Positions 14,022 through 53,937 of a stretch of 64,000 nucleotides of DNA are shown here, piece after piece. The translations under genes and the position numbers were made by a program. Position 1 is the stretch's first letter. Each line of letters starts with the position of its first letter. The notes under the pieces were generated by a model. That model ran no database searches, was not told the DNA's origin, and saw nothing but the letters and a program-made list of their open reading frames with translations. Origin of the DNA: Bacillus sp. 7884-1. GTDB taxonomy: Bacteria > Bacillota > Bacilli > Bacillales > Cytobacillaceae. The DNA lies in the NCBI RefSeq assembly GCF_002272245.1, contig NZ_NPDD01000063.1, positions 62,001 to 126,000 on the forward strand, in the 5' to 3' direction.

Positions 14022-14026
14022 GGAAC

Positions 14027-14548: not shown

Positions 14549-14607
14549 TTTTATATTCCTCCAATATGATTGCTATTTGCATAGCACAAGTATATCCGTT
14601 TCAAATG

Positions 14608-15315
14608 TTAGACAGTCATTTTCCAACTTGATAAAGCTAACCAGTTTTCTTGCTGCTCATAATCAGGGATTATTTTACCTACAAGGCGCCAAAAGGAGCG
14701 ATCATGATTCAGATGGACCATATGGCACATTTCGTGAACGACTACATAGTCAATCACCTTCTGTGGTGCCATCGCCAGCTTCCAATTAAAGGTCAACTGC
14801 AGCTTGGAATCACAGGTTCCCCAGTTCGTCTTATTATCTGTAATTCGGATTGACCGTGGTTTTACTTTAAAGTTACTTTGAAAGGAACGAATACTCTTTT
14901 CTACTAACATTTTGCACTGCTGATAGTAAAATCGTTTCAAAGCTTGTTTTACTTTTTCATCTTCAAGTTGTTTCACAAATATATGTAAATTCTCCTCTTC
15001 AAAAACTGCAAAGTCTTGTTGTATTTCCGTATCTTGAGTAATCTGAATGGGATATTCATTTCCTAAATAAAGAAAGCTCTCGCCATGTTCATAGGCCTTC
15101 GCCGTTGGTCCAAGGGATCTAGCCTTCATTTCTTTTAGCTTTAGCTGAATCCAATCCCATTTTTCCTCTAATGCTAGAATCACTCGTTCATCGGATATCC
15201 CCTTAGGAACGTGTACTTCAACATATCCATTACTATCTATATGAATGCTCATCGATGTACGCTTTTTATACTTTACCTCAAATCTAATTGTCTGACCTAA
15301 ATAGGTATGAATCAT
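14608..15315 (-). CDS. YgjP-like zinc metalloprotease (DUF45, SprT-related)
   Basis: 235 aa. C-terminal zinc site 'VVHEMCHMVHLNHDRSFW' (HExxH at about residues 189-193, third His a few residues on), preceded by 'NWGTCDSKLQLTFNWKLAMAP', both hallmarks of DUF45/YgjP. Start ATG 15315 with AGGTGATAAG upstream. Cytoplasmic; the family is believed to be a metallopeptidase of unknown substrate. A separate gene with no clear operon partner. Confidence 0.9.
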   Translation of the reverse strand: MIHTYLGQTIRFEVKYKKRTSMSIHIDSNGYVEVHVPKGISDERVILALEEKWDWIQLKLKEMKARSLGPTAKAYEHGESFLYLGNEYPIQITQDTEIQQDFAVFEEENLHIFVKQLEDEKVKQALKRFYYQQCKMLVEKSIRSFQSNFKVKPRSIRITDNKTNWGTCDSKLQLTFNWKLAMAPQKVIDYVVVHEMCHMVHLNHDRSFWRLVGKIIPDYEQQENWLALSSWKMTV

Positions 15316-15979: not shown

Positions 15980-17242
15980 TCAGCTTCCTTTTGGTTTTTC
16001 TGCTTCCCTGCGCTTTTCCTTAATACAGCTTACCCCAATCAGGCCAATCATAGAAAAGATGACTGGAGTAATGAAACCGTAGAAGTATCCATCACCCATA
16101 CTACCTGAAGCAAGCTGAAAATGATCTAATACCATTCCAAAAATACTTGGCAGCAGGACCGCACTTAAGAAACCACCCGTATTTGCAAACCCAGAGACAA
16201 CGCCAGAATCAATTATAGGAAATGATTGACGGACGACAGCAAAGGTTAATGCACTTGCTCCATACCCAAAGCCAATGATAAAAAACAGCATAATGAGCAT
16301 GAATAATGGGGGATTTCCTTTATATAAAAGAAATGTAGCCCAACACGATAAAATAGTGATATGAACAACAATATATGGCCGTTTAATTGTTTCCAAACGG
16401 CTTGAAATCCAACTTGTCAGCGGAGCACCCATAAGTGCCCCAATCATACCAATCATAATGAGTTCACTGGCATCTGAACGTGTCATTCCATACACATTCA
16501 TCCCATAAGGCACCGCCCACGAACCGATAAATCCCACATACGCACCGACAATTCCAAAGTGACAAAAGAATAAAGCCCATGCCTGTCGGTTCGAAAAGAT
16601 TCTACGAATTAAAACCAAGGTTTTTTCACGATGAATTTCATTTTTTACTACTGTCGGTTCAGTAAGTTGTTTTGGTTTTTTTATGAGGACAAAATAAAGA
16701 AGAATCCCGCATAAACATAATAATAGTCCCACGAAAAAAAATGCTGGCCTCCAGCCTAGTAAACCAATCCATGCCGTAAATGGGACGGTTGCCAAGAGGA
16801 ATCCAAGACTTCCGGCCATCCCCGCGAAACCAATTAAGCGAACAAATTCCTTCACTTTAAACCACTGTCCCAAAATTAGTACCATATTAACCCAAATAGT
16901 CGCATCCCCTGTCCCCGTCAGTATTCTGGCAAAAAATAGAACATATTCATGCGTGCCGACACTATAAATGATTGTACCTAATCCCGTTAGGATTGCGCCG
17001 ATAATAAGAAAAAAGTTGGGTCCATACCGATCTGCCAGAATACCCATCGGAATTTGTAAACCGGTGTATACAAAAAATTGAATACTTGTCAGTAATCCAA
17101 TTGTTGATGCTGTTACATTAAAATCCCTCATCACTTGGTCGGTAATCAATCCCGGAGCGGTTCGCTGGCTCGCCATTAATAAATACGTAAACAAAACAGA
17201 AGCAAATACAACCCATCTAAACCTGCTATTTTGTTTATCCAT
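15980..17242 (-). CDS. MFS transporter
   Basis: 420 aa, twelve predicted membrane helices, start ATG 17242 with AGGAG upstream. MFS signature loop 'GILADRYGPNFF' after helix 2 and 'GWRPAFFFVGLLL' in the middle, resembling organic-acid or hexuronate-type carriers. It stands downstream of the LacI gene on the same strand but is separated by a strong terminator (17309-17354), so it is probably its own unit. Substrate unknown; a link with the neighbouring sugar regulon is possible but unsupported by an operator. Confidence 0.85.
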   Translation of the reverse strand: MDKQNSRFRWVVFASVLFTYLLMASQRTAPGLITDQVMRDFNVTASTIGLLTSIQFFVYTGLQIPMGILADRYGPNFFLIIGAILTGLGTIIYSVGTHEYVLFFARILTGTGDATIWVNMVLILGQWFKVKEFVRLIGFAGMAGSLGFLLATVPFTAWIGLLGWRPAFFFVGLLLCLCGILLYFVLIKKPKQLTEPTVVKNEIHREKTLVLIRRIFSNRQAWALFFCHFGIVGAYVGFIGSWAVPYGMNVYGMTRSDASELIMIGMIGALMGAPLTSWISSRLETIKRPYIVVHITILSCWATFLLYKGNPPLFMLIMLFFIIGFGYGASALTFAVVRQSFPIIDSGVVSGFANTGGFLSAVLLPSIFGMVLDHFQLASGSMGDGYFYGFITPVIFSMIGLIGVSCIKEKRREAEKPKGS

Positions 17243-17409: not shown

Positions 17410-18462
17410 CTATTTCCCAAACCCAAGCGTAGATTGCCTTTTAACAAGACGGACGTCAAGTAAAGGTTCTTCAAGGTAGGATTTATCATCCTCTAAACCC
17501 TCAATTTTACGAATAAGTTTGTTGGTGGCAGCTACCCCGATATCATAGATGGGCTGTTCTACCGTACTAATTTCCGGTTCTACCATTTCGGTTAGCTTGA
17601 TTCCGTCAAAGCCTATGATAGCAATGTCTTTTGGAACATGGTAGCCTAATAACTTTAGTGCTTTAAGACTTCCAATCGCCATTAAATCATTTGCTAAAAA
17701 GATTCCATCGACATCCTTATGTTCGTTCATAAGGATTTGGGTTTGAACCTTTCCGCTTTCTAGGGTAAAGTCTCCTTCATATATCCTATCTTTATCCCCT
17801 GCTCCAGTTGGCGATACCTCTTCACCTATTCCAGACCAGGCAGCAACCGTCTCCAGATATCCTCGTTTCCGTTCTGTGGAAGATGGGAATGATTCGGGTC
17901 CACTGATATGAGCAATTTTCTTACAGCCAACTTCAATCAAATGTTCAACTGCTAACCTGGCACCCTTATAATTATCCAGTCCAATCGAGTCAAATGTATT
18001 ATTTTCAGCAGCTCTATCAATTCTCACAAACGGTATTTGTAATTTTTCAATTGCCTTTAAGACTTTTTCATCAATTTGAAACGAGGCAAGTATAAAACCA
18101 TCTACATACCGGTTTTGGAGTTGCTTCCAAAAATGATTGTCTTTCATGTCGTCAGACTGGTTATTTATTAAGATGATGCTATATCCCTTTGATTTTGCCA
18201 CTTCTTCAATGGCAACTACAAGTTCTGGGAAAAAGGGGTTCGTGATATCAGGGATAATCAGAGCAATCGTACGAGTTTTCTTCTTCGCTAATCCTCTCGC
18301 GATTTCATTCGGATGGTAGTTCAAGCGCTCCATCACTTCACGAACTTTTTTCTCGGCCGTTTGACTAATATATCCATTACTATTCAAATATCTAGACACT
18401 GTCGCTACGGAAACACCTGACTCCCTTGCAACATCTCGAATTGTTACTTGCTTCTCTCTCAC
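17410..18462 (-). CDS. LacI family transcriptional regulator of the ADP-ribosylglycohydrolase regulon
   Basis: 350 aa. N-terminal LacI helix-turn-helix 'VTIRDVARESGVSVATVSRYLN' (residues 6-27) with the hinge helix 'NEIARGLAKKKT', then a periplasmic-binding-protein-like effector domain of the RbsR/CcpA type ('ALIIPDITNPFFPELV', 'IGFDGIKLTEMVEPEISTV'). It closes the cluster 17.4-30.2 kb. The likely operators are the TGTAACCGGTTACA-type palindromes at 26387, 26434, 30313 and 30355; none is seen before its own start. The effector is probably a sugar or the imported compound (inference). Confidence 0.9.
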   Translation of the reverse strand: MREKQVTIRDVARESGVSVATVSRYLNSNGYISQTAEKKVREVMERLNYHPNEIARGLAKKKTRTIALIIPDITNPFFPELVVAIEEVAKSKGYSIILINNQSDDMKDNHFWKQLQNRYVDGFILASFQIDEKVLKAIEKLQIPFVRIDRAAENNTFDSIGLDNYKGARLAVEHLIEVGCKKIAHISGPESFPSSTERKRGYLETVAAWSGIGEEVSPTGAGDKDRIYEGDFTLESGKVQTQILMNEHKDVDGIFLANDLMAIGSLKALKLLGYHVPKDIAIIGFDGIKLTEMVEPEISTVEQPIYDIGVAATNKLIRKIEGLEDDKSYLEEPLLDVRLVKRQSTLGFGK

Positions 18463-18572
18463 GAAAATTCTCCTTTAGAAGGATATTTCTATATTTGAAC
18501 TACTATTGATCATTAAAAAAGCCCAAGGAGCATGTTTTGCCAATATCATTTACTCCTCAAGCCACTTCAATT

Positions 18573-20705
18573 CTATTCTTTTGTTTCTTTTACATGGAAA
18601 CGATGGAATTTTGTTTCCCCTTTTTCAAGAAGTCCTAAACCAATCATACCATAATTATTTTCTATCCCATCGAAATCCAAAACTAGATCGTCATTGATTT
18701 CGACCTGGACGGCAGATCCCTTTATGAAAACCTTAAAATCATGTATGGTTTCAAGATTCCATTCATACGGAACTGTCTTTATCCTTTTAAAGCCAAAGTT
18801 ATTTTCAATGAGCGTAACCTGATTAGGACCATCGAATCCTACCCAATAATAGCGTTCTGTACCCATTGCTCGAAAAATAACTCCGTGGCTTACACCAGTA
18901 ACAGGCTGCAAGCTTACTTCTAATTCAAGGTCACTTCCATAATAGTTCCCAGTAAAGGAAGATGTATCTTCCTCACCTGCTGCAGCCTTCATGTTATCAC
19001 CTTCAAGTGTCCATTCACCACGGTGATGAGCAAAAGGCGTTACACATTTGAACTCAATGGCTTGTTTAGCAAAATCTATGGTATAGTTTGCATTTCCAAA
19101 GATACGAAACTCACCGATATAAAACTTGCCAAATGACCGATTGTCTGTAGGGGAGGGACTCTCTACAATAAAACCAACCTCGTCAATCAATGCGCCGTCT
19201 GTTTCTGGAATCATAAACTCAATATCCAGCCACTCTTGATGGCGTAACACGACACGATCTAGTTTCATGTCTTCCTTTGTAAAACTGTTGCGGATATAGG
19301 GAGTCAAATAAACATCTGCTCCACCTTGCCATTTATCCATAAAAATCTTTGCAGTTACCGTTTGCCCACTGTATGCTGTTGGGGCAAAGGTAGGCTTATA
19401 TTTTTCATCATTGAACTCTTCACGACGATAAAAAGGCTTGTAATATACTTTACTGGAATCGCCTTCTATGAATCTGTCGAAAAGAACAGACAATGATCCA
19501 TACGCTGCCTCTAAGCCCACATCGTCACATGAATGCAGCAAAGTCTTAAAGCTATTATTCGTCCTAAATCCGTGAGTTGATCCTGGCAATGCAAAATCAA
19601 AGTAAACCTCACCATTTCGAATACTTTCTACTAACCACTGTGGAGATTTCACACCATTCACTTCATAGCCAAGAACAGCAAGCTCCTTACAGAAGGTTGG
19701 GATATCCAACACGTTCAGATAACCAGACACGCTGGATGTAGCAATCATATCATTGATAGGTTTGCGATAGTGGCTTGGAATTCCATCAATCCCAACGAAA
19801 ACACCTAGGATGGTTCCAACATTCCCTGCATTACAATCTGTATCCCAGCTGCACATGGTAGCAATCTCAACCGTTCGGGCCAAGTCACCGTTTCCATACA
19901 ATAGTGCCAAAGCACATACCCCAGCATTCGGGATGATATGGCAAACACCCGTGTACTTATCGTAGCCCCATTCTTCTTCTAAATACTGACGGCACTTACG
20001 GAAATCCTCTTCCTCACGGTGCTTCTTGTAAAAATCAATTACCGCTTCAACCACGGCAAAATAGGTGGAATTCTTAGGAATTACAGATAATCCTGCTTCG
20101 ATAATATCATCAATACTATCAGCTGAAAAGGCTTTCGAAATACACGCTGCCATAAAGCGGGCTCCGTATAACCCATTCTTATCATGAGAAACACTTGCTG
20201 CTATTTCTGCATAATCGGCAGCCTTATTTATATCATCAGGGAACAGAAGACCCCATGTATCAATGAAAATTTGTCCGCCAATTTGCTCAGCCATAATAAT
20301 GCCATTGACCTCAGCCGAACCAGACTGTGGGGCTGGAATTCCTTTTTTCAGATTTAGATACGCCGTATGCTCTGTACTTATCTGATCTCCGCCCCACCAA
20401 AACATACCGATTCCTTCACGCGAATAGTTTAACCACGCTCTTGCAACATCCTGCGGTGTTAACTCCCGACCGCGTGCATCATCAATTAAAGCACGGATAA
20501 AATAGACAGGACCATTTGCATCATCATCAGCGGAGAAGGTTTTATAATCCTTTACATACCCCCGAATATCACCATGAATTTCTTTTATTTTTTCATATGA
20601 CCATTCATTGGGCTCTAATGGTGCACCCAGTCTGATTCCAACATTCATTCCTAAGAAACCTGCATACATTTTTTCCAAATAGTTTTCAGGTATCAATCGA
20701 CTCAA
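18573..20705 (-). CDS. ADP-ribosylglycohydrolase family protein with C-terminal LamG-like domain
   Basis: 710 aa, TTG start at 20705 with GGGGAG six bases upstream. N-terminal ADP-ribosylglycohydrolase (ARH/DraG) fold, about residues 10-350, with 'GMNVGIRLGAPLEP', first metal motif 'DDDANGP' and second metal motif 'SWDTDCNAGNVG'. A middle beta-rich region is followed by a C-terminal concanavalin/LamG-like domain (about 550-705, 'GVIFRAMGTERYYWVGFDGPN', 'YGMIGLGLLEKGE') of the type seen in glycosidases. No signal peptide, so cytoplasmic. Last gene of the AtuA-ribokinase-permease operon. It likely hydrolyses a glycosidic bond; the substrate is unknown. Confidence 0.85.
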   Translation of the reverse strand: MSRLIPENYLEKMYAGFLGMNVGIRLGAPLEPNEWSYEKIKEIHGDIRGYVKDYKTFSADDDANGPVYFIRALIDDARGRELTPQDVARAWLNYSREGIGMFWWGGDQISTEHTAYLNLKKGIPAPQSGSAEVNGIIMAEQIGGQIFIDTWGLLFPDDINKAADYAEIAASVSHDKNGLYGARFMAACISKAFSADSIDDIIEAGLSVIPKNSTYFAVVEAVIDFYKKHREEEDFRKCRQYLEEEWGYDKYTGVCHIIPNAGVCALALLYGNGDLARTVEIATMCSWDTDCNAGNVGTILGVFVGIDGIPSHYRKPINDMIATSSVSGYLNVLDIPTFCKELAVLGYEVNGVKSPQWLVESIRNGEVYFDFALPGSTHGFRTNNSFKTLLHSCDDVGLEAAYGSLSVLFDRFIEGDSSKVYYKPFYRREEFNDEKYKPTFAPTAYSGQTVTAKIFMDKWQGGADVYLTPYIRNSFTKEDMKLDRVVLRHQEWLDIEFMIPETDGALIDEVGFIVESPSPTDNRSFGKFYIGEFRIFGNANYTIDFAKQAIEFKCVTPFAHHRGEWTLEGDNMKAAAGEEDTSSFTGNYYGSDLELEVSLQPVTGVSHGVIFRAMGTERYYWVGFDGPNQVTLIENNFGFKRIKTVPYEWNLETIHDFKVFIKGSAVQVEINDDLVLDFDGIENNYGMIGLGLLEKGETKFHRFHVKETKE

Positions 20706-20725
20706 CTCCTGCTCCCCACTATCTT

Positions 20726-21874
20726 TTAAAGTAGGCTTTTTCTTTTTTCATTTAATTCTATGTCTTGCTGAATAATCAATTTAGCAGTATCTGCAAATTG
20801 GTCAGCTACCTGGGTTAAATTCATTTTGTTCGTTTCTTGCAGGAGCTCTACGTCCTCAGGAAGAATTATGCTATCTCCGTACATGGCACCTAAAATAACA
20901 CCGGCCATTACTCCGATGGAATCTGTATCACGACCAGAGTTGATACCATCTAATATTGTTCTGTAATAATCTCCATCGTTCAAGACGATAAACGCTAACG
21001 CCATCGGGAGCTCCTCAATCGAGAAGAGACGGCTTGGTGTATAATGATTTGAAGGAATTCCAACCTTCTCAATGTTCCGGTGTACATCGTCTTTCATTGG
21101 AGAATACTTTTCAATCACATTTTGGAAAGTGGCAATTACAGTATCCATTTCTGCCTTTTCAGAACGTAATTTGCGAGCGGCTGCGGTTAAATCACGGATT
21201 GCGTTCTTCGTTCCATCTTTTGCAAAATAAATGGCGGTCTCCACAATATCATCAACCGTCACATTTTCTTCAAATGCTTTAGCCACACAAGCTGCCAACA
21301 CACCTGCTGCCTCTAAACCGTAACTGCTTTGATGCCCCATCGCAAACAATATTGCTTCATCATAAGCCGCCTTTGGGTTTCCAGCATTGACAATTCCTAC
21401 AGGTGCAATATACATCGCAGCACCACAGTTAATCATATTGCCAATCCCGCCTTCGCGCGGTTCACAATTTGCTAATACATGACGCATAAATATATATTTT
21501 TCAGGGTAGAAGAGACGGTCGATTATGAGCGCCTCTTTGCCGAACTCAGGGATATACGTTTTTCTGAAAGCAATTTCTTTCACAAATTCATTTCCCATAT
21601 CGTAAGCGTCTATATGTCTTTTTTCTTGGTTATAGACGTTGATGAGAGCAACGGTCATAAGAGTATCGTCTGTAACAGTACCATTGCCTCTTTTTCTGCC
21701 TAAATTCATATCAGCTGGGTAATCTTCCTTGTACCATTTTGTACGGAGAGTTTCGACCCTCTTATACATTTTTTTAATCTCTTTATAGCTCAGTTTTTCA
21801 ACAGGCGCCCCCATTGCATCGCCCAGTGCAGTGGATAATACTACACCTCTAACTCGTTCTTTAAAAGAAACCAT
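20726..21874 (-). CDS. ADP-ribosylglycohydrolase family protein
   Basis: 382 aa, ATG 21874 with AGGGAG upstream. ARH fold: 'LSTALGDAMGAPVEKL' at the start, first metal motif 'TVTDDTLMT' and C-terminal second metal motif 'SGRDTDSIGVMAGVILGAMYG'. All Asp ligands expected for the binuclear Mg site are present, so it should be active. Twenty bases separate it from the larger ARH gene downstream; the permease gene lies 73 bases upstream. Members of the family remove ADP-ribose or related ribosyl groups from proteins or small molecules; in this sugar-uptake operon a small-molecule glycoside is more likely (inference). Confidence 0.88.
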   Translation of the reverse strand: MVSFKERVRGVVLSTALGDAMGAPVEKLSYKEIKKMYKRVETLRTKWYKEDYPADMNLGRKRGNGTVTDDTLMTVALINVYNQEKRHIDAYDMGNEFVKEIAFRKTYIPEFGKEALIIDRLFYPEKYIFMRHVLANCEPREGGIGNMINCGAAMYIAPVGIVNAGNPKAAYDEAILFAMGHQSSYGLEAAGVLAACVAKAFEENVTVDDIVETAIYFAKDGTKNAIRDLTAAARKLRSEKAEMDTVIATFQNVIEKYSPMKDDVHRNIEKVGIPSNHYTPSRLFSIEELPMALAFIVLNDGDYYRTILDGINSGRDTDSIGVMAGVILGAMYGDSIILPEDVELLQETNKMNLTQVADQFADTAKLIIQQDIELNEKRKSLL

Positions 21875-21947
21875 ACGAAGAACTCCCTTTTTTTATTTCT
21901 ACAAAATTTGTTTTTTTTCAAAACTAATTCCACTTTAATCTTAATGA

Positions 21948-22835
21948 TCAGTCCTTGACTCCACCCTCGAAGGCACCTTTTGTATAGTACTTCAGAATTA
22001 AAGGATAAAGTAAAAGCAAAGGTACAATCGAAATGATAATCGTTCCAGCCTGAAGGGAAGCAAAGTCAATTGTTGCTACTTGGTCATAGGATAGGAAGTT
22101 TTGTGCTCCTACCAAGGATGTGTTATCACGTTCCACAACAAATTGTCGAAGAACTACCTGCAGCGGCCATTTTCCAATATCGGTTAAATAGATGGTTGCA
22201 CGGAAGTATTCGTTCCAGTGATATACTCCATAAAAAAGTCCCATTGTTGCCAAAGCGGGTTTGGATAAAGGTAACATAATCTTTGTAAAAATGCGGAAGT
22301 GTCCAGCTCCATCCATACGTGCAGCTTCTAGAATGCTCTCTGGAACATCCTCAAAAAATCTCATCATAATAAACAAGTAAAAAATATTGACTGTTTTATA
22401 TAGAATCAAGGATGCATACGTATCTAACAATCCTAAATTTTTTACTAGTAAATACTCCGGAATTAATCCTGGTTCGAACACCATAATGACAATTAAAAAA
22501 ATCATAACGATATTTCGGCCAGGAAATTTCGTTCTTGCCAACACGTAGGCAGTCATTGATGTAAGTAATAGGTTCAAGGTCGTACCAATGATCGTAATTA
22601 AAAAGGTATTAAAAATACTTTTTACAATTAACGGGTTGGAAAATAGTATTTTATAGTTAATGAGTGAAAATCCTTCAGGTATTATTCCTAATCCACCTAG
22701 TTCGTGAACCTTGAGCGGATCTGATAAAGACATCGCTAGTAAGTGAAGAAGCGGAACTAATATTGCTAAAGAGATTACAAACAAAATACTGTAAATAACA
22801 ATGGATGAAATACTTAATTTTGTTAATTTTTTCAT
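21948..22835 (-). CDS. ABC sugar transporter permease, YtcP/LplC type (CUT1)
   Basis: 295 aa from ATG 22835, preceded by GGAGGTGG; the longer frame adds seven residues coded by the ribosome site. Six membrane helices, with the EAA loop 'EAARMDGAGHFRIFTKIMLPLSKPALATMGLF' near residue 180 that contacts the ATPase. C-terminus 'KYYTKGAFEGGVKD' is typical of the YtcP/LplC branch. Pairs with the permease upstream, which it overlaps in the longer frame. No ATP-binding gene is present; this branch usually borrows the shared ATPase MsmX. Confidence 0.93.
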   Translation of the reverse strand: MKKLTKLSISSIVIYSILFVISLAILVPLLHLLAMSLSDPLKVHELGGLGIIPEGFSLINYKILFSNPLIVKSIFNTFLITIIGTTLNLLLTSMTAYVLARTKFPGRNIVMIFLIVIMVFEPGLIPEYLLVKNLGLLDTYASLILYKTVNIFYLFIMMRFFEDVPESILEAARMDGAGHFRIFTKIMLPLSKPALATMGLFYGVYHWNEYFRATIYLTDIGKWPLQVVLRQFVVERDNTSLVGAQNFLSYDQVATIDFASLQAGTIIISIVPLLLLYPLILKYYTKGAFEGGVKD

Positions 22836-22849
22836 AATTGTTCCACCTC

Positions 22850-23749
22850 CTACCAAACTCCTTTACCTGTGATGCGTTTTGTAATAAAGTGTGTTCCCAA
22901 GATTAAGGTAACCCCAATCACACCCTTGAAAAGACTGGCTGCAGTCGCATATGCGTATTGGCCGTTAATTAGTCCAATTCGATACACATAAGTATCTAAA
23001 ATATCAATAACACTGATGACAGATGCGTTCATCATATTAAATACTTGGTCAAAACCAGCATTCATGAAGAATCCAAGGTTTAGAATAAAGACTGTCATGA
23101 TCGTACTAGTTAAAGATGGCAGCGTAATATATCTCATTTGCTGTAATTTGGATGCTCCGTCAATGGTAGCCGCTTCGTATAAAGAAGGACTAATTTTCAG
23201 AATAGCCGCCAAGTAAATAATAGAGTCCCAACCAGCACTGCGCCAAATTTCTTGGAACACCAATACCCAACGGATATGGTCCTTACTCGTCATGAAATCA
23301 AGAGATGGCATATTAAAAAAGTTACGGAGGACATTGACTCCACCATCTTCTGGGTTCAGCAATGCGATCCAAATCCCCGCAATAACGACCCATGATAAAA
23401 AGTGTGGGAGGTAAACAATTGACTGAACATATTTTCTAAACTTCCCAACCCTTACCTCATTGATTAGCAATGATAAAATAATCGGTATCGGAAAGAAAAA
23501 CACAATTTTCATCACGCTAATAATAATGGTATTTTGTAATACATCCATAAAGGCTGGGGAACTAAATAAAACTTTGAAATGCTTCCAACCGACCCAAACG
23601 TTTTCACCGATTATTCGATAATCCTGAAATGCCAGCTTCATCCCGATTATTGGAATGACGTGGAAAATCGAAAAATAAAGGAGGGCTGGAAAAAGCATAA
23701 GATAGAGAACCCAGCTTGATTTAATTTCCTTGAGTATGCCCTTTTTCAT
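22850..23749 (-). CDS. ABC sugar transporter permease, LplB/YteP type (CUT1)
   Basis: 299 aa, six membrane helices, EAA loop 'YEAATIDGASKLQQMRYITLPSL' in the second half. N-terminus 'LMLFPALLYFSIFHVIPIIGMKLAFQDY' is typical of the LplB/YteP branch that imports oligosaccharides or glycosides. The start overlaps the 3' end of the ribokinase gene by 29 bases, so it is translationally coupled. Together with the permease downstream and the lipoprotein at 28707 it should form one importer. Confidence 0.93.
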   Translation of the reverse strand: MKKGILKEIKSSWVLYLMLFPALLYFSIFHVIPIIGMKLAFQDYRIIGENVWVGWKHFKVLFSSPAFMDVLQNTIIISVMKIVFFFPIPIILSLLINEVRVGKFRKYVQSIVYLPHFLSWVVIAGIWIALLNPEDGGVNVLRNFFNMPSLDFMTSKDHIRWVLVFQEIWRSAGWDSIIYLAAILKISPSLYEAATIDGASKLQQMRYITLPSLTSTIMTVFILNLGFFMNAGFDQVFNMMNASVISVIDILDTYVYRIGLINGQYAYATAASLFKGVIGVTLILGTHFITKRITGKGVW

Positions 23750-24647
23750 CTTGATACTCCTTTTCCTTTACAAATTGAGTCACATCATTTCGTTTGGGCA
23801 TTCCAGTTTGAGCACCCTTTTTTGTGACTGATATTCCAGCAGCTATGTTACCAAACCAAATACTATCTTGCAGGCTGCTCCCTTCTGCAATTGCAACAGA
23901 GAATGCACCAGAAAATGTATCTCCGGCACCCGTTGTATCAACCGGAGTCACCTTAATGGCAGGAACTAATTTGATTTCGCTTCCATCAAAAAAACGAACA
24001 CCCTCTGACCCACATGTAACAATCAATTTATTCGGGTACTTTTTAAGTAACTCTTCCATTGATTCATTCGTGTTAAAAACCATGTTGTACTCGTGCTCAT
24101 TTGGTGTGATATAGGTTACTTTTTCAATCAGCTCTTGCTTTAGTGTTTTTGCTGGTGCAGGATTTAATATAATCGTTTTTCCATGTTCGTAAAGTCCCGG
24201 AACCAGATATTCAATCATTTCTATTGGTGTCTCGAGTTGAAATACGATAACATCGAATTTTTGCAGTTCTAATGCTATGCTTTGTACATAATCAATATTA
24301 GTATGTGCATTTGCACCTGGTACTACAATTATGCGATTTTCACTTTGACAAAGCTCAATAAATGCTGCCCCTGTAGGTGTTCCTTTTACAGATTGGAGAT
24401 TCACTAGATTGATATTTTCCTTTTCCAGCTTCTTGATAATGATTTCACTATTCTCATCGTCCCCAACAGATCCGAATAAGGATACGTTACCACCAAGGCG
24501 TGCAGCAGCTACAGCTTGATTCGCCCCCTTACCACCAATGGATAAAAAGAAATTCTCACCCAAGACGGTTTCTCCTATTTTAGGGAGTACCTCGGTTTCA
24601 ATAAAATAATCCATATTGATACTTCCAACAACGGCTATTCTCTGCAT
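23721..24647 (-). CDS. Ribokinase-like PfkB carbohydrate kinase
   Basis: 308 aa from ATG 24647 (AGGATGAT upstream); starts at 24665-24653 are also possible. PfkB signatures: 'GSINMDYFIETEVLPKIGETVLG' with 'GGKGANQAVAAARLGG' near residue 40, and C-terminal 'DTTGAGDTFSGAFSVA' with the catalytic Asp. The overall pattern is that of RbsK, which makes ribose-5-phosphate from ribose and ATP. The gene lies between DUF4387 and the permeases. A ribokinase next to ribosyl-bond hydrolases suggests ribose is the released sugar, although PfkB kinases for other sugars or nucleosides cannot be ruled out. Confidence 0.88.
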   Translation of the reverse strand: MQRIAVVGSINMDYFIETEVLPKIGETVLGENFFLSIGGKGANQAVAAARLGGNVSLFGSVGDDENSEIIIKKLEKENINLVNLQSVKGTPTGAAFIELCQSENRIIVVPGANAHTNIDYVQSIALELQKFDVIVFQLETPIEMIEYLVPGLYEHGKTIILNPAPAKTLKQELIEKVTYITPNEHEYNMVFNTNESMEELLKKYPNKLIVTCGSEGVRFFDGSEIKLVPAIKVTPVDTTGAGDTFSGAFSVAIAEGSSLQDSIWFGNIAAGISVTKKGAQTGMPKRNDVTQFVKEKEYQDEKGHTQGN

Positions 24648-24657
24648 GTTCATCATC

Positions 24658-24969
24658 CTAATCAATCAGTATATTCATTAACGGTGCATGCTGTTGTGCC
24701 CCATATACATCTCGGTCTCCAACAGTTCCAGAAGAAATATCTCTAAATATCGTAATCTTAATTCCAAGAGCTTGATCGTAGAAAACAAGATGGTCAATCT
24801 CATCTTCTGTCAGGTTATATAGTTCACAAATGATTTGTTTATTGATTTTCCCTGAATTCTTTACTCGCTCATAGACTGCCTTTGAATCAAATAAAATATC
24901 GAATGTCAGCTCAAAAGGTCCTGCATTTTTACTTCGTAGTACTTTAGCTAGTTCAAATAGAGTCGCCAT
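24658..24969 (-). CDS. DUF4387 family protein
   Basis: 103 aa, ATG 24969 with GAGGGG overlapping the end of the AtuA-like gene (12-base gap). Small acidic alpha/beta protein that recurs as a partner of AtuA-like DUF1446 proteins ('LRSKNAGPFELTFDILFDS' near the start, 'FRDISSGTVGDRDVYGAQQHAPL' at the end). In longer homologs the two domains can be fused, so the pair probably forms one enzyme or complex. Function unknown. Confidence 0.87.
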   Translation of the reverse strand: MATLFELAKVLRSKNAGPFELTFDILFDSKAVYERVKNSGKINKQIICELYNLTEDEIDHLVFYDQALGIKITIFRDISSGTVGDRDVYGAQQHAPLMNILID

Positions 24970-24981
24970 ATTTTCATCCCC

Positions 24982-26340
24982 TCACAAATACTCAATAACA
25001 AATGGATTTTCAGTAATTTCCATTAGATGATAGAGAGAAAATTCAAAAACGGGTCCAAACTCTACATCACTTGGTGCAAATGGAAAAGCTAAATTTCCAG
25101 CTGTTGATTTCCGGTTTTCATATCCGTAATGGAGAAATGTCGACCTAACGCTAGAGCAAATACTGCTTGCAAGCTCTTGTGTTTTCGCAACAACTTCGAA
25201 CATCACACCAATCTCGTGCCCATGGAATGATGCTGACTCTCTTGCTCCAAGCACCCCATTTTTCCCATAGTTATAGAAGTTTATAGAATAATCTTCTTCT
25301 GGAATGTCATCGTAGTAGTTCTTCACCTGATTGATCACGAGCTCCTCAACTTCTTCGATATTTTCCACTAGAATCGGGTCACGAACACCGGCAATTACAA
25401 AAGTTCTATAGGCAACCTTTCGTGCGCCTTCTAACTTGATAAAGTATTGATTATTTTTTAGTAGTTTACTATTCTTAACCTCGACAACACCTTCACTCAC
25501 TTGAGTAAATTCACATTGACTAAGATCCAATATAATGCCTGGTCCATGTAAAATGTATGGATGTTCTTTTTCGTAAAAAGTATGAGCACTAACACTTATT
25601 GGCGAACATTTACGAATTGGATTAAGGGATTGAACAGTGAAAGATTCTTCCTTTAATGTTCCTACGATACAATCCTTCGTTGTGCCTGGTTCTGCACACA
25701 AAGCGCCACATTCCAATATTTTACCTAGGTGGTAAGCCAGACCTGGATCCTTGCCGTAGTAAATTCCGACTGCAGCAAATGGTGAAGGATCATACGCTCT
25801 TCCACACACAACAATGTCTGCTCCGTTTTGAAGTGCTTCCAAAATAGGTTCGTGTCCCATTTGCGCTACAATGCTGTTCGTTTCTTGAATCACTTCATTC
25901 GTTAGGTCCGGAATGTTTGGCGTTAGCGATTTAACTCGCTCCTCATTGTTTGCTTTCATAATTTCTTCCTGTGTAAAGTCTGCCCAAATCACCGCGATTT
26001 TCGCTGTTAAGCCACGCTCAGCCATGATTTCCTTAATTATATCGAGCGTCCACTCAACATGTGGCTTCGCACCCGCTCCGCCAGCTGATCCTATCACGAT
26101 CGGAATGTTGCGTGGAACTCCATTTTTTATTATGATATCCAAATCCTTTTTTGTTGCACGGCGGCTCACAATCGCTACTCCCGCACCGAGTTTATGCGGT
26201 CCTGCATCAGTCGATCCTGCATCCACCACGATACCGTGGACCTGTTGATCGTTGTCAAACGCTCGATTAAAAGATTCTTCCGGAAATCCATAGCCTAATA
26301 TCCCACATGGGGAAACGATTCTTACGTCACTGTTAGTCAT
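24982..26340 (-). CDS. AtuA-like (DUF1446) family protein
   Basis: 452 aa from ATG 26340 with AGAGG upstream; the longer frame to 26406 would be coded by the operator. Glycine-rich 'VIGSAGGAGAKPH' and 'VVCGRAYDPSPFAAVG' plus 'VDAGSTDAGPHKLG' near residue 40 fit the acyclic-terpene-utilisation AtuA N-terminal family. AtuA itself acts in citronellol/geraniol breakdown, but its chemistry is not settled. First gene of the operon running through DUF4387, ribokinase, two permeases and two ARH genes. Two LacI-type operators lie in its leader (26387, 26434). Confidence 0.85.
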   Translation of the reverse strand: MTNSDVRIVSPCGILGYGFPEESFNRAFDNDQQVHGIVVDAGSTDAGPHKLGAGVAIVSRRATKKDLDIIIKNGVPRNIPIVIGSAGGAGAKPHVEWTLDIIKEIMAERGLTAKIAVIWADFTQEEIMKANNEERVKSLTPNIPDLTNEVIQETNSIVAQMGHEPILEALQNGADIVVCGRAYDPSPFAAVGIYYGKDPGLAYHLGKILECGALCAEPGTTKDCIVGTLKEESFTVQSLNPIRKCSPISVSAHTFYEKEHPYILHGPGIILDLSQCEFTQVSEGVVEVKNSKLLKNNQYFIKLEGARKVAYRTFVIAGVRDPILVENIEEVEELVINQVKNYYDDIPEEDYSINFYNYGKNGVLGARESASFHGHEIGVMFEVVAKTQELASSICSSVRSTFLHYGYENRKSTAGNLAFPFAPSDVEFGPVFEFSLYHLMEITENPFVIEYL

Positions 26341-26386
26341 GCTAAAACCTCTTTTAACTGGAATTTGTATCTCGCTTTGACTATCG

Positions 26387-26406
26387 ATGTGTAACCGGTT
26401 ACACAT
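26387..26406. promoter_or_regulatory. LacI-type operator, downstream site of the AtuA promoter
   Basis: ATGTGTAACCGGTTACACAT is a 20-base perfect palindrome with a central CG/GC step typical of LacI-family operators. It lies downstream of the -10 box. Confidence 0.85.
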
Positions 26407-26433
26407 TTGTTTAAAAAAAAGCTTTTTTTAAAT

Positions 26434-26451
26434 ATGTAACCGGTTACACAT
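26434..26451. promoter_or_regulatory. LacI-type operator, upstream site of the AtuA promoter
   Basis: TGTAACCGGTTACA core (26435-26448), centre 45 bases from the other operator. An A/T-tract palindrome (about 26409-26432) lies between the two and could bend the DNA. The core also fits a CcpA cre site, so CcpA could bind too. Confidence 0.85.
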
Positions 26452-26461
26452 TGTTACTCTT

Positions 26462-26491
26462 ATGTTACCGCTTACCTATAGTCCTTGTCAA
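26462..26491 (-). promoter_or_regulatory. Predicted promoter of the AtuA-ribokinase-permease-ARH operon
   Basis: On the minus strand TTGACA (26491-26486), 18-base spacer, TAACAT (26467-26462). Both operators lie downstream, so a bound regulator would block early transcription. Confidence 0.65.
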
Positions 26492-26545
26492 CCACTTTTA
26501 ACACCTATAATTAGTTACAGTACCAAATCATTTTTTCTAATATTG

Positions 26546-26585
26546 AAAGAAGAGGTGCACTTTTTGAGTCGTGCACCCTTTCTTT
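26546..26585 (-). terminator. Hairpin after the second ARH gene
   Basis: GGTGCAC (26554-26560) / GTGCACC (26571-26577), stem extended by AAAG/CTTT pairs. It ends the binding-protein-ARH-ARH unit before the next promoter; the T-run is weak. Confidence 0.6.
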
Positions 26586-26602
26586 ATACTATTTCTCAGA
26601 CT

Positions 26603-27643
26603 CTAGGCATTTTCAAAGTTAGCTAATCTCGCAGCAACTTCTTTCAGTGATGTCCCTTGTAAACTTGGGATACAAATTCCTTTAATTTCATCCAATGTTT
26701 CTTTCCAAGTCTCCGGAACTGCGCCTGCCCCCTGTAAGGCCCCAGAAAGAGCACCAACCATTGCAGGCATACTATCGGACTGTTTCGGCAATAAGGCTGC
26801 CAGCTGAATTCCTTTTTGCAGGTCTCCTTGCGTGCTTAAAAAGATAGCATAAGCAACTGCAAGTGTTTCTGGAGCGACATTTGCATAGTTATATACCGCA
26901 TTAACAACCCGTTTATGCCATAATGGAATAGCCGCAAGTCCATCCCCATTGGTTTCTTCTAATACTTTTAGGGCAATATCTATTTTCCTTCGAATCCAGG
27001 TATTTTCAGGTATGAATTTCAATCCTTCCTCCACCACTTCTTGTGGAGTAACTCCTGATAATGCTGCAGCAATGCTGGCAGCCATTGCCTTGGCTGCATA
27101 GACACCATCTTCTGCATTCGTGATGGAAGCCATTTTTTGTGCAGCATTGGCAGCTTTTTCTGGTTGATTTTTATAGATTAGGCCGATTGGAACAGCACGT
27201 GAAACGGATCCATCATCATAGTGATGCGGATTGTCATTACCTGACGCTGGAGGAAGGATTCCTTTTTTGATATTTTCAATAGAAGCTCTCTCACTTACTC
27301 CACTCCATATTTCCTGTTCAGCTTCTACTATATATTTCATCCAGCCATGAAGTAATTTTTCTTCTGTAATTTCATTCCCGCAATCCAAAATCATTTGAGC
27401 GGCAACGATTGCAAATTCCGTATCATCCGTACCGCAAAAATCTAATAATTCCTCACTCATAGCATGTGTGAAGGGTAATGATATTTTATTAATTCGGTGA
27501 GAATCGGTAATTTGGCTGAAGGTCCATAATCGGTTTCTTCGCTTGGGAGGAAGTACGAGCGATCTATGATACATGGCAGCAAAGCCCACTGAATCCCCCA
27601 TTGCCATACCTAGAAGGGAACCGTAAATATTATCAAATGACAT
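26603..27643 (-). CDS. ADP-ribosylglycohydrolase family protein with altered second metal motif
   Basis: 346 aa from ATG 27643, which overlaps the stop of the upstream gene by one base (TAATG) and follows GGAGGAAAAG. ARH fold: 'GSLLGMAMGDSVGFAAM', first metal motif 'GTDDTEFAIV'. The C-terminal motif that should read about R-D-x-D-T is 'PKQSDSMPAM', so one Asp ligand is replaced by Gln and Thr by Ser. It may be a non-catalytic partner, or bind a single metal. Its neighbour upstream is a close paralog with the full motif, suggesting local duplication and divergence. Confidence 0.85.
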   Translation of the reverse strand: MSFDNIYGSLLGMAMGDSVGFAAMYHRSLVLPPKRRNRLWTFSQITDSHRINKISLPFTHAMSEELLDFCGTDDTEFAIVAAQMILDCGNEITEEKLLHGWMKYIVEAEQEIWSGVSERASIENIKKGILPPASGNDNPHHYDDGSVSRAVPIGLIYKNQPEKAANAAQKMASITNAEDGVYAAKAMAASIAAALSGVTPQEVVEEGLKFIPENTWIRRKIDIALKVLEETNGDGLAAIPLWHKRVVNAVYNYANVAPETLAVAYAIFLSTQGDLQKGIQLAALLPKQSDSMPAMVGALSGALQGAGAVPETWKETLDEIKGICIPSLQGTSLKEVAARLANFENA

Positions 27644-28635
27644 TACTCTTTTCCTCCTATCAAAACATTTGTTAAATCTGTTGCAACATCTCGAACGTCT
27701 ATCCCTGCCATTGCCAATACACAACGCCCGCGAATAATGTTGATTCGATCCTGCCAGGCCTTCGGCACAGCATCAGCACCATGTAATGCCCCTGCCATAG
27801 CGCCATTCATCGCAGCAATCGTATCAGAATCTCTTCCAATATTAACCCCCCCTAGTACAGCCGGGATATACTCACCCTTCGCTGCTGCAAAAACGCCATA
27901 TGCCAGCGGGATCGCTTCCGGACCCATATCTGCCCAAGGATAGTAGAAAATTGAGATTTTATTGTAGAGCTCTTCCATTGCATCTTGCACATTCGTATAC
28001 TTCGAGCCGATTTCTACTGCCTCGTTGATTTTTCGATATGTCCACGAATCTTTAGGTATGTGGCTAATCCCTGTTTCAATCACTTTTTTCCAGTCATTTC
28101 CTGTCATGGCATATGCAACACTTGCTGCTAAAGCTTGTCCACAGTATACTCCATCACGGTCGTGACTAACTCTTGCTTCAATCTCAGCTAATCTAGCAGC
28201 CTCTTCAGGATTCCCAGCACAATAAATACCAATTGGAGAGATTCTCATGGCTACTCCATCACTCCACATTTGGTGATTGTCCACCCCTGTGTTGGGTGCA
28301 GTCAATCCTTTTCGTAGATTAAAAATAGCCTCTACTTCACTAAAGCCGCCGCCTTTAAAGCCACCTTCTTGAGAGACAAGGTATTTTGTCCACTCTCTTG
28401 TCATATCCCCATAGCTTAATTTATTCCCATATTTTAAAATAATTTTTGCTGTTAACATTGTGTATTCAGTATCATCTGTACCCACAGGATCGTCATTGAC
28501 AAAATCAGTGATCCAACCATACTTGTCTCTTATCTCTTCCAAAGCCAAACCTTCTGTTGGAGCTCCTAATGCGTCGCCCACAGATAAACCTATTAAACAA
28601 CCATATACCCGTTTGTACCATTGTTCGAAATTCAA
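27643..28635 (-). CDS. ADP-ribosylglycohydrolase family protein
   Basis: 330 aa, TTG start at 28635 with AGGGGG seven bases upstream. ARH fold with 'GCLIGLSVGDALGAPTEGL', first metal motif 'VGTDDTEYTML' and intact second motif 'IGRDSDTIAAMNGAMAGALHG'. Conserved blocks 'SHDRDGVYCGQALAASVAYAM' and 'KGGGFSEVEAIFNLRKGLTAP' are shared with the other paralogs. Downstream of the binding-protein gene, separated by a hairpin (28667) that may lower its expression relative to the binding protein. It overlaps the next ARH gene by one base. Confidence 0.88.
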   Translation of the reverse strand: MNFEQWYKRVYGCLIGLSVGDALGAPTEGLALEEIRDKYGWITDFVNDDPVGTDDTEYTMLTAKIILKYGNKLSYGDMTREWTKYLVSQEGGFKGGGFSEVEAIFNLRKGLTAPNTGVDNHQMWSDGVAMRISPIGIYCAGNPEEAARLAEIEARVSHDRDGVYCGQALAASVAYAMTGNDWKKVIETGISHIPKDSWTYRKINEAVEIGSKYTNVQDAMEELYNKISIFYYPWADMGPEAIPLAYGVFAAAKGEYIPAVLGGVNIGRDSDTIAAMNGAMAGALHGADAVPKAWQDRINIIRGRCVLAMAGIDVRDVATDLTNVLIGGKE

Positions 28636-28666
28636 ATGAGAACCCCCTACTATACTAGTTTTTAAA

Positions 28667-28695
28667 AATAGTGGAGAACTTTGTCTCCACTATTT
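28667..28695 (-). terminator. Hairpin between binding protein and ARH genes
   Basis: Perfect AAATAGTGGAGA (28667-28678) / TCTCCACTATTT (28684-28695). The U-run is interrupted, so it may act as an attenuator or as a 3' stabiliser of the binding-protein mRNA. Confidence 0.7.
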
Positions 28696-28706
28696 CTTTA
28701 GATATC

Positions 28707-30194
28707 TTATTTTAATGTTTTATTTGCCTGTTCAGTAATCTGTTTTCCACCAGCTTCGTTCCACTCTTTAACAAATTTATCAAAGTCAGAGATTGGACGC
28801 TTGCCTGTAATGATGTCTGTTGTAAACTCTTTATACAAATTCTGCATGGCATCCCAGTTTGCAACAAATTCTTCTGAAATAATGAAGCTATTATCATCTT
28901 CATAGAACACTTCTGCAGATTCAAGTGACTTTGCAGCAGTTTCACTTAATAAAGGTGTAGTTTCATCTATTGGAGTCACAGGAGTGAATTCAACTGGCTC
29001 CCAGAATCTCGCAAACCATTCACTGTAATATTTATCCGTAAGCTGAATCTTTCCATCAACCGTGCTATAATGTTCGCCTTCGAATCCGAAACGGTCAATC
29101 ATTTGTCCTTCAGGGCTTGCCATATAATCTAGAACCTTGAATACAAGTTCCTTGTTCTTAGAGTTTGCAGAAATGGCAATACCTCTAGATTCTTTCGTAA
29201 CATCTGTAGAACCAAAGCCTTGGAATTCACCTTTTGCTGGTGGCAACATTACTAATGAAGCTTCTTCCCCACTCACTTGAGCCATTTTACCATCATAAAT
29301 ATCAATTACTTTACCAGCTGTACCTGGAATGATTGCTGCTTCTCCATCAAAGAATGCTTTTTCTTTTGTATCCCATTGTTTAGTTAAATATTGAGGATCT
29401 AAAAGTCCCTCTTTATATAACTTGGTATAGAATTCAAGCTTTTCTTTTTGCTGCTCAGAAACTCTTGCGTATTCGTATGAACCATCTTCTTTTTGTAACC
29501 AAGTCTTATTGATTCCAAAAGCCATATCAAACATATAATCGATTTCAGCAATGTCACCAGCAACAGTAATTGCATAATTTGGTTTATCGCTGCCTGGTTT
29601 TTTTTCAACTAACTCTTTAAAAAATGCATAGTAATTATCCACAGTTGGATTTTCTAATAGTGCTTTAGAAGTTTCCATTTGGTTAAACCAATCTCCTCTA
29701 ATAACAGGGACTTTAGGAGCAAGAGGTTTAATCCATAATAAGTAAGGATAGTTTTCAAGTCTTTTTTCGTTATAAGGTTGGATAATATCCTTTAGATATT
29801 TTGAATCCTTGATGTGAGGACGTAAATCCTCTAATAAACCTTGCTCTGCCATTGCTTGGTCTCCACCTTGGAAATAAATCATATCCGGAATTTCGCCGCT
29901 ATTAAGCAGTAAGTTCAGCTTTTCAGCATAGTTACCTTGTGGAAGATCTACTAATTCAAAATTCACTTTAATATTTTCATCTTCAAGAAGCCCTTTTTCA
30001 ATTGCATCATAATATTTTTCTGATACAGGGTTAGTGCTATTATCATCCTTCATGACAATACGAATCGTAGTTGCTCCTCCATTTTTACCGCTGTCTTTAC
30101 TATCTCCCTGGTTTGTTTCCTCTTTGTTAGAACAAGCTGCTAGGAAACCAAAAACCATAATTAAGCTTAAAATTGCTAAAAAAGATTTTCTCAT
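28707..30194 (-). CDS. Extracellular solute-binding lipoprotein of an LplA-type sugar ABC transporter
   Basis: 495 aa. Lipoprotein signal with lipobox 'FLAAC' (Cys at residue 21). Family-1/LplA-type binding fold with 'YAEKLNLLLNSGEIPDMIYFQGGDQAMAEQGLLEDL' early on and 'GIAISANSKNKELVFKVLDYMASPEGQ' later. Start ATG with GGGGGAAAAG upstream. Own promoter with two LacI-type operators (30313, 30355). It is separated from the permeases by about 5 kb, but shares their operator type, so they should form one importer. LplA/YtcQ-type proteins usually bind oligosaccharides or glycosides rather than free ribose. Confidence 0.92.
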   Translation of the reverse strand: MRKSFLAILSLIMVFGFLAACSNKEETNQGDSKDSGKNGGATTIRIVMKDDNSTNPVSEKYYDAIEKGLLEDENIKVNFELVDLPQGNYAEKLNLLLNSGEIPDMIYFQGGDQAMAEQGLLEDLRPHIKDSKYLKDIIQPYNEKRLENYPYLLWIKPLAPKVPVIRGDWFNQMETSKALLENPTVDNYYAFFKELVEKKPGSDKPNYAITVAGDIAEIDYMFDMAFGINKTWLQKEDGSYEYARVSEQQKEKLEFYTKLYKEGLLDPQYLTKQWDTKEKAFFDGEAAIIPGTAGKVIDIYDGKMAQVSGEEASLVMLPPAKGEFQGFGSTDVTKESRGIAISANSKNKELVFKVLDYMASPEGQMIDRFGFEGEHYSTVDGKIQLTDKYYSEWFARFWEPVEFTPVTPIDETTPLLSETAAKSLESAEVFYEDDNSFIISEEFVANWDAMQNLYKEFTTDIITGKRPISDFDKFVKEWNEAGGKQITEQANKTLK

Positions 30195-30312
30195 TACTTT
30201 TCCCCCTGGAATTTATTTAAAATATTAATTTAAAATCGATGAATGAATGCTCCCCCCTTGCCATTCATCATAATCTGAGATTAATAGAATTAACCTTCAT
30301 ATAACAAAAATA

Positions 30313-30328
30313 TGGTACCGGTTACACA
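30313..30328. promoter_or_regulatory. LacI-type operator (imperfect), binding-protein promoter
   Basis: TGGTACCGGTTACACA: right half perfect, left half with two changes. Centre 43 bases from the perfect site at 30355, similar to the 45-base spacing at the AtuA promoter. Confidence 0.65.
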
Positions 30329-30354
30329 ATTAGCTAAAAAAACATGACTCCAAC

Positions 30355-30370
30355 ATGTAACCGGTTACAT
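30355..30370. promoter_or_regulatory. LacI-type operator, binding-protein promoter
   Basis: ATGTAACCGGTTACAT, a 16-base perfect palindrome, 16 bases downstream of the predicted -10 box. Confidence 0.85.
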
Positions 30371-30385
30371 ATTCTTTTCCCTTTT

Positions 30386-30414
30386 AGGATAATTGAAAGT
30401 GATTTTAAAGTCAA
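30386..30414 (-). promoter_or_regulatory. Predicted promoter of the binding-protein operon
   Basis: On the minus strand TTGACT (30414-30409), 17-base spacer, TATCCT (30391-30386). The rest of the gap 30195-30665 holds a long leader, the two operators and a hairpin after cysK. Confidence 0.6.
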
Positions 30415-53923: not shown

Positions 53924-53937
53924 TGAAACCGGTTTCA
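53924..53937. promoter_or_regulatory. cre/LacI-type palindrome near the GH2 start
   Basis: TGAAACCGGTTTCA, perfect 14-base palindrome, also fits the CcpA consensus; 30 bases upstream of the GH2 ATG. Confidence 0.7.

Follow-up and report, generated by a model that had tools for sequence, protein, structure and literature searches.

In a 64,000-nt stretch of DNA from Bacillus sp. 7884-1 (hereafter the window), the list of open reading frames (ORFs) places an eleven-gene module at 17410..30414, entirely on the minus strand, which we propose to be a catabolic operon system for a ribosylated small acid. A preliminary description of this DNA had claimed a regulator, an importer, a kinase, an AtuA-like protein, DUF4387 and four ADP-ribosylglycohydrolase (ARH) paralogs, and all eleven genes were recovered through Pfam and sequence matches. 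The features are listed below from the high-coordinate end.

30313..30369: operator pair 5′ of the binding-protein operon (exact copy at 30356-30369, two mismatches at 30313-30326)
28707..30194, minus strand: SBP, LplA/AlgQ-like family-1 binding lipoprotein (sequence match to solved relatives)
27643..28635, minus strand: ARH1, canonical ARH fold, accessory (PF03747, 194.7 bits; GD, TDDT and RDSDT motifs present)
26603..27643, minus strand: ARH2, degenerate ARH paralog (Pfam, 162.6 bits; QSDS in place of DxD)
26390..26448: operator pair 5′ of AtuA, two exact copies of TGTAACCGGTTACA
24982..26340, minus strand: AtuA, CmlA-like large subunit of a predicted citramalate-type lyase (PDB 9erq_A/9evf match, tree, conservation)
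24658..24969, minus strand: DUF4387, CmlB-like small subunit (PDB 9erq_B match; Pfam PF14330)
23721..24665, minus strand: RbsK, ribokinase (TIGR02152, 320.9 bits; sugar-site motifs)
22850..23749, minus strand: LplB-type CUT1 permease (Pfam BPD_transp_1)
21948..22856, minus strand: LplC-type CUT1 permease (Pfam BPD_transp_1)
20726..21874, minus strand: ARH3, canonical ARH-fold hydrolase, module core
18573..20705, minus strand: ARH4, variant ARH domain, middle beta-rich region and C-terminal CBM66-like domain, module core
17410..18462, minus strand: LacI-family regulator (best NCBIfam match RbsR, under its cut-off)

Linkage and operators of the module

The LacI protein, the two BPD_transp_1 permeases, the PfkB kinase, AtuA (94.1 bits against a cut-off of 22.8), DUF4387 (PF14330; 132.7 against 27) and all four ADP_ribosyl_GH proteins (PF03747; 146.8 to 194.7 bits against 26.2) score above their Pfam cut-offs. 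The AtuA start likely lies near 26340, because the first 22 codons of the longer ORF run through an operator, and the true start of ARH2 is probably near 27643, the listed start being too early.

Relatives of AtuA were collected from 215 pattern matches in the genome collection, which gave 174 relatives, and the best 80 of these 174 were examined with their loci; the filtered counts that follow are slightly low, since the best-match filter removed overlapping ORFs. Any ARH gene is present in 77 of the 80 loci, ARH4 together with ARH3 or ARH1 in 75, DUF4387, LplB and LplC in 77 each, and the binding protein in 75, while the unfiltered view places DUF4387 in all 80 and ARH3 in locus L126. A ribokinase-like gene was counted in 62 loci (64 including L085 and L089 from the unfiltered view), ARH1-like genes in 20 and ARH2 in 12. 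Three loci lack an ARH gene: L073 and L087, on short contigs whose sequence stops within the binding-protein gene, and L102, with a real gap in the stretch. The smallest forms are AtuA-DUF4387-RbsK-ARH3-ARH4 with no importer (L092), AtuA-DUF4387-ARH3-ARH4 (L093) and AtuA-DUF4387-ARH1 (L110). The taxa include Bacillaceae, Paenibacillaceae, Clostridia, an Anaerolineaceae metagenome-assembled genome (MAG) and a Spirochaetia MAG, and the genes flanking the module vary between these lineages; for this reason the MFS gene at 15980-17242 and the genes upstream of 30414 were rejected as module parts.

Among 200 genomes searched, DUF4387 occurs in 26, the window's own included, at 27 places. In the 20-kb stretches round the other 26 places, the ARH-linked set is present in 12 and absent in 14, the window being linked as well. 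With the ARH4 profile, 21 of 200 relatives have a match at E 1e-20 or better. In 13 of them, the window's genome included, the match exceeds 1100 bits, and these 13 coincide with the full set of genomes in which AtuA/DUF4387 is linked to ARH genes; in G195, an ARH4 paralog (788 bits) and AtuA/DUF4387 are both present but on separate contigs, unlinked. The linkage of the module genes exceeds chance, and the unlinking in relatives that the preliminary description had named as a refutation did not occur.

The claim of two same-strand blocks with common operator palindromes was also borne out, as a palindrome pair precedes each block. A scan of the window located three perfect copies of TGTAACCGGTTACA, at 26390, 26435 and 30356, and a copy with two mismatches at 30313; in shuffles, sites with at most two mismatches averaged 0.17 per window, with a maximum of 1. 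A site of this kind lies near the AtuA start in 22 of the 25 loci that have a LacI gene, and in L074, which has the site and no LacI gene in the stretch, a LacI gene is found farther along the same genome (L034). Other regulator types among the 80 loci are a GntR/FCD gene in 32 and an AraC-type gene in 6, at least four of the latter also carrying a GntR gene. A fifth, lone palindrome, TGAAACCGGTTTCA, with two mismatches to the operator, is located at 53924-53937, far outside the module.

The AtuA/DUF4387 pair and its plasmid counterpart

That AtuA and DUF4387 process the "other part" of the substrate had been suggested in general terms, and on genomic grounds this can now be made specific through the match of both proteins to citramalate lyase. 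AtuA aligns with chain A of PDB 9erq/9evf, the citramalate lyase subunit A, at E 3.2e-134 and 451 bits (its residues 29-466 of 474 with residues 6-438 of 456), and DUF4387 aligns with 9erq_B, the subunit B, at E 1.9e-30 and 108 bits. The likeness to CmlAB therefore lies in homology of both subunits almost end to end, in the adjacency of the two genes, as seen in the window, and in 77 positions at which at least 97% of 80 ARH-linked AtuA rows agree (the window and 79 loci, L103 being omitted for its split ORF) and which are identical in all six CmlA-like rows. Three AtuA positions look specific to one or the other group and are candidates. The module pair differs from CmlAB in its placement in a sugar-import operon with ARH genes and a ribokinase, and in forming a separate clade: in a maximum-likelihood tree of 46 rows, the 30 ARH-linked AtuA rows other than L201 make up one clade (100/100) nested among the CmlA-like rows. 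The AtuA of L201 (36%) falls outside this clade, reflecting either a second association or a long-branch effect.

Where AtuA/DUF4387 is not linked to ARH genes, the neighbours tested at nine such loci were identified as TctA/TctC, a 2-hydroxycarboxylate transporter, PrpF, MmgE/PrpD, a PEP-mutase/ICL-type protein and an HMGL-like lyase. A 2015 study places a DUF1446 gene in citramalate-forming glutamate-fermentation clusters (PMC4682846). No paper on CmlAB was found in the open-access literature. A role of AtuA as an acyclic-terpene gene was rejected, since its solved relative is CmlA and the module has no terpene-breakdown gene.

Searches of plasmid records returned ARH4 in 25 records and ARH3 in 21, from which 18 of the 21 ARH3 records (without H23, H24 and H38) were sampled, together with two ARH4 records of a separate type (L215 and L216; ARH4 at 31-33%, with no ARH3 match in the record). 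Fifteen of the 18 are rhizobial and have the order LacI-permease-permease-binding protein-ARH3-ARH4-UgpC, an order interrupted in L222, where a Rhizobium plasmid carries the module with several of its genes broken; two Pseudochrobactrum records are without ARH4, and a Nonomuraea record (L225) has four ARHs. The ARH3 of rhizobial L212 is 56% identical to that of the window. Directly after UgpC, nine of the 18 records (L212, L220, L221, L223 and L226-L230) carry a seemingly intact pair of genes for a CoA-transferase III and a CoA-ester lyase, which is fragmented in L222 and reduced to the transferase in L217. Both joints in L212 are 4-base frame overlaps, and Pfam assigns the pairs of L212 and L220 to CoA_transf_3 and HpcH_HpaI. 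The best solved relative of the L212 lyase is the mitochondrial CitE-like protein 5vxc, which we take to be the citramalyl-CoA lyase CLYBL.

Judged from these sequences, the CoA pair apparently replaces AtuA/DUF4387 in a non-homologous swap of one reaction, and it is the counterpart of CmlAB that would be expected for a CoA-dependent route; two unrelated systems for cleaving 2-hydroxy diacids would therefore have been recruited alongside one kind of importer and ARH pair. What likens the module pair to CoA-dependent citramalate/malate cleavage is that the latter occupies the place of AtuA/DUF4387 in the rhizobial operon, whereas its family is not homologous to CmlAB and requires activation by CoA.

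Kinases, ARH-fold proteins and importer

The idea of a riboside served by a kinase was strengthened by the genomic comparison. The window RbsK passes the TIGR02152 ribokinase equivalog (320.9 against 299.65) and misses that of PRK11142 (261.7 against 341), and TIGR02152 is passed by six of eight kinases, namely those of the window, L115, L063, L083 and L121 and a LacI-kinase fusion of 660 aa encoded immediately upstream of the AtuA operon in L119 (7987-9966). The ribokinase sugar-site motifs (N, D, GGKGxNQ, E and the catalytic D, in a residue numbering that we assume) are present in 62 linked kinases, the sole change being Gly-to-Ser in L117. The linked kinases are 31-88% identical to the window RbsK, and the gene is positioned after DUF4387, after ARH4 or before AtuA; therefore, more than one recruitment is likely. 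Kinase groups were separated by identity, motif and gene position, and the L126 kinase row (23% identity) was discarded as spurious. In the plasmid records, ribokinase-like genes are found in L213 (downstream), L219 (nearby, on the opposite strand) and L225.

These kinases also bear on whether the sugar could be another furanose, such as deoxyribose, fructofuranose, apiose or arabinofuranose, with a matching PfkB kinase. Many of the linked kinases are just 31-38% identical to the window RbsK, two miss the ribokinase cut-off (L104 and L213), a DeoC-type aldolase lies beside one ARH4-kinase pair, and the CBM66 of B. subtilis levanase binds fructofuranose. However, the passing of the ribokinase equivalog by six of the eight and the sugar-site motifs retained in 62, with one substitution, make such a sugar improbable.

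The four ARH paralogs claimed in the preliminary description were confirmed as four genes, but they are not equivalent, given the CBM66-like domain of ARH4, the lost Asp of ARH2 and the restriction of ARH1-like and ARH2 genes to 20 and 12 of the 80 loci. In the alignment, ARH1 and ARH3 keep the metal-site Glu, Asp-Asp and DxD, and ARH4 keeps E31, D60-D62, D288 and D290 with GIRLG instead of GDxxG; we presume these metal-site positions partly from the ARH3 mutants named in PDB titles. The first Asp of DxD is replaced in ARH2 (QSDS), with the same loss in Nonomuraea L225 at 8027-9004 (PLADS), and the ARH2-like protein, which is retained across phyla, is perhaps a non-catalytic partner of ARH1. 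ARH4 consists of an ARH-fold domain and a C-terminal domain that is CBM66-like by both predicted fold and sequence profile, the middle region (about 355-537) being barely covered by the fold search.

The fold and, in part, the metal motifs are common to these proteins and the ARH/DraG ADP-ribosyl hydrolases, from which the module proteins differ in missing the DraG and Tri1 NCBIfam equivalog cut-offs (best 63 against 337 and 48.9 against 490), in the CBM66-like domain of ARH4, which matches neither model at E 0.01, and in their catabolic setting. On the strength of fold and motifs, the module could serve the scavenging of ADP-ribose, poly(ADP-ribose) or ADP-ribosylated peptides. This is very unlikely: Pfam detects no phosphodiesterase, NUDIX enzyme or phosphatase among the eleven genes, the DraG/Tri1 cut-offs are missed, and a hydroxy-acid lyase does not fit.

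ARH4 paralogs also occur outside the AtuA setting. Their neighbours are ABC permeases and kinases that share 33-36% identity with RbsK in L193-L196, a nucleoside hydrolase, kinases and an adenine deaminase in L197, a kinase, a nucleoside hydrolase and a BMP-type binding protein in L211, and a kinase and a DeoC-type aldolase in L206. The nucleoside hydrolase, adenine deaminase, aldolase and ribokinase-like kinases among them strengthen the idea of a riboside and its kinase. Such neighbours (IU_nuc_hydro, adenine deaminase, BMP-type binding protein, DeoC-type aldolase and PfkB kinases), and the combination, in E. coli yegTUV, of an ARH and a sugar kinase with a predicted nucleoside symporter (PMC10819704), favour the best rival, nucleoside or deoxynucleoside scavenging with an acid step, in which the ARHs would be nucleosidases and AtuA/DUF4387 would handle an acid derived from the base or a modified base. 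However, no base-processing enzyme was found by Pfam among the eleven module genes, the additional step is a hydroxy-acid lyase that comes in two unrelated forms, and the importer is of the CUT1/AlgQ type, so that nucleoside scavenging is unlikely here. Elsewhere in the window's genome, a different sugar ABC operon contains a further ARH4-like gene (L198, contig C5, 4998-6374).

The importer had been called LplA-type, which agrees with the two BPD_transp_1 permeases and the LplA/AlgQ-like family-1 binding lipoprotein, the combination expected of CUT1; the nearest solved relatives of the lipoprotein are 5xs8, 5gub, AlgQ1 and AlgQ2 (E 4e-14 to 1e-8). An ATPase gene is absent among the eleven window genes, and UgpC is present in the rhizobial versions. 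The Lpl/CUT1 sugar import operons of Bacillales likewise combine a binding lipoprotein, two permeases and a LacI regulator, whereas the enzymes of the module are ARHs and a hydroxy-acid lyase rather than known glycoside hydrolases.

In distant lineages, esterase-like genes accompany the module, between binding protein and ARH in L114 (6568-7668), L116 (15494-16621) and L201 (11111-12019) and after the kinase in L115 (19289-20992), with an ORF of equal size at the same place in L118, which suggests that some substrate forms may be acylated or ester-linked. Ribose and acid might accordingly be joined by an ester, cut first by dedicated esterases where these are present; such genes are seen in just five of the 81 module loci (the 80 and L201), the neighbours elsewhere having been identified in part, and we regard an ester link as very unlikely. 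Adjoining ARH4 in L114 (10874-12319) and L116 (19816-21267) are lipoprotein-like ORFs of about 480 aa, of which that of L114 has two apparent similar halves and a single Pfam match, DUF4969 at its start.

Proposed pathway and its weight

The observations show which genes are present and linked, what they are homologous to, which motifs are conserved, where operator-like sites lie and which folds are predicted. From them we infer the substrate, the effector, every reaction and the sequence of the steps of a pathway in which the module would act as a complete catabolic operon for a small 2-hydroxy dicarboxylic acid, of the citramalate/malate type, conjugated to a ribofuranosyl group, a reading that we consider, on balance, probable. 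SBP-LplB-LplC would import the conjugate, presumably powered by a shared MsmX-type ATPase, which is assumed because no ATPase gene is found in the module. In the cytoplasm, ARH3 and ARH4, aided in some strains by ARH1/ARH2, would hydrolyse the bond to ribose C1, and the CBM66-like domain of ARH4 may hold the furanosyl end. RbsK would convert the ribose to ribose-5-phosphate, and AtuA/DUF4387, as a CmlAB-type CoA-independent lyase, would cleave citramalate to acetate and pyruvate or malate to acetate and glyoxylate. The LacI protein would repress both promoters at their common palindromes. Import, cytoplasmic hydrolysis, entry of the sugar into the pentose phosphate pathway and processing of the other part had been proposed in the preliminary description, and genomic comparison and structure prediction speak for the pathway. 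Apart from the linkage, the CmlAB match and the kinases, the nearness of the regulator to RbsR and the CBM66-like domain of ARH4 count in its favour.

Several observations weigh against this pathway. On the substrate, we know of no ribosyl-(citra)malate, and the compound is absent from the titles and abstract starts listed in an open-access literature search aimed at it; two ARHs are present for one bond, and esterase-like genes occur in a few loci. On the sugar side, 16 of the 80 loci have no kinase in the examined stretch, and the TIGR02152 cut-off is missed by the kinases of L104 (229.9) and Agrobacterium L213 (279.4). On the acid side, the L212 pair misses the curated NCBIfam cut-offs for RipC_Ccl, CitE and all CoA-transferase models, the nine intact CoA pairs are all from Ensifer/Sinorhizobium and so are nearer to one evolutionary event than to nine, and none of the 18 plasmid records has both a kinase and the CoA pair. 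As for regulation, the operator is imperfectly tied to LacI, the site being present also in 14 of 55 loci without LacI in the examined stretch, and the LacI-family regulator misses the cut-off of its best NCBIfam match, the RbsR equivalog NF047341 (260.4 against 382).

A wider reading, which we put forward tentatively and hold to be somewhat doubtful, is that ARH3/ARH4 found an undescribed class of ribofuranoside hydrolases for a common environmental ribose-citramalate/malate metabolite, the acid step having been acquired twice, in a CoA-independent and a CoA-dependent form; its scope would be Bacillota, Chloroflexota and Spirochaetota MAGs, rhizobia and an actinomycete. None of the protein families is new, and for AtuA/DUF4387 the structure of a related pair has been solved. 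As the preliminary description had supposed, no description of this gene set was found among the open-access papers listed in literature searches, which covered few subscription journals. If the proposed pathway is true, ADP-ribosylglycohydrolase-like proteins of sugar operons would be small-molecule ribosidases, the module would give a sharp, testable prediction of an undescribed natural metabolite, and AtuA/DUF4387 would gain a second setting besides citramalate metabolism.

The pathway would also bear on the function of E. coli yegTUV, a simpler parallel with no established function that comprises a predicted nucleoside:H+ symporter, an ARH and a sugar kinase (PMC10819704). Transport, ARH and sugar kinase are joined there too in one operon under one repressor, and the differences are another transporter class, a single ARH and the lack of a lyase.

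Two minor observations concern the plasmid versions. In the Agrobacterium plasmid L213 (13192-17179), the operon adjoins genes for an acyl-homoserine-lactone synthase and LuxR. In Nonomuraea L225, ARH1-, ARH2-, ARH3- and ARH4-like genes stand side by side, a PfkB kinase gene with ribokinase motifs comes after them, and AtuA was not found in the examined stretch; downstream of this four-ARH cluster, beyond a GntR-like gene, a 2-isopropylmalate-synthase-like gene is located at 13592-15286, which may be a coincidence.

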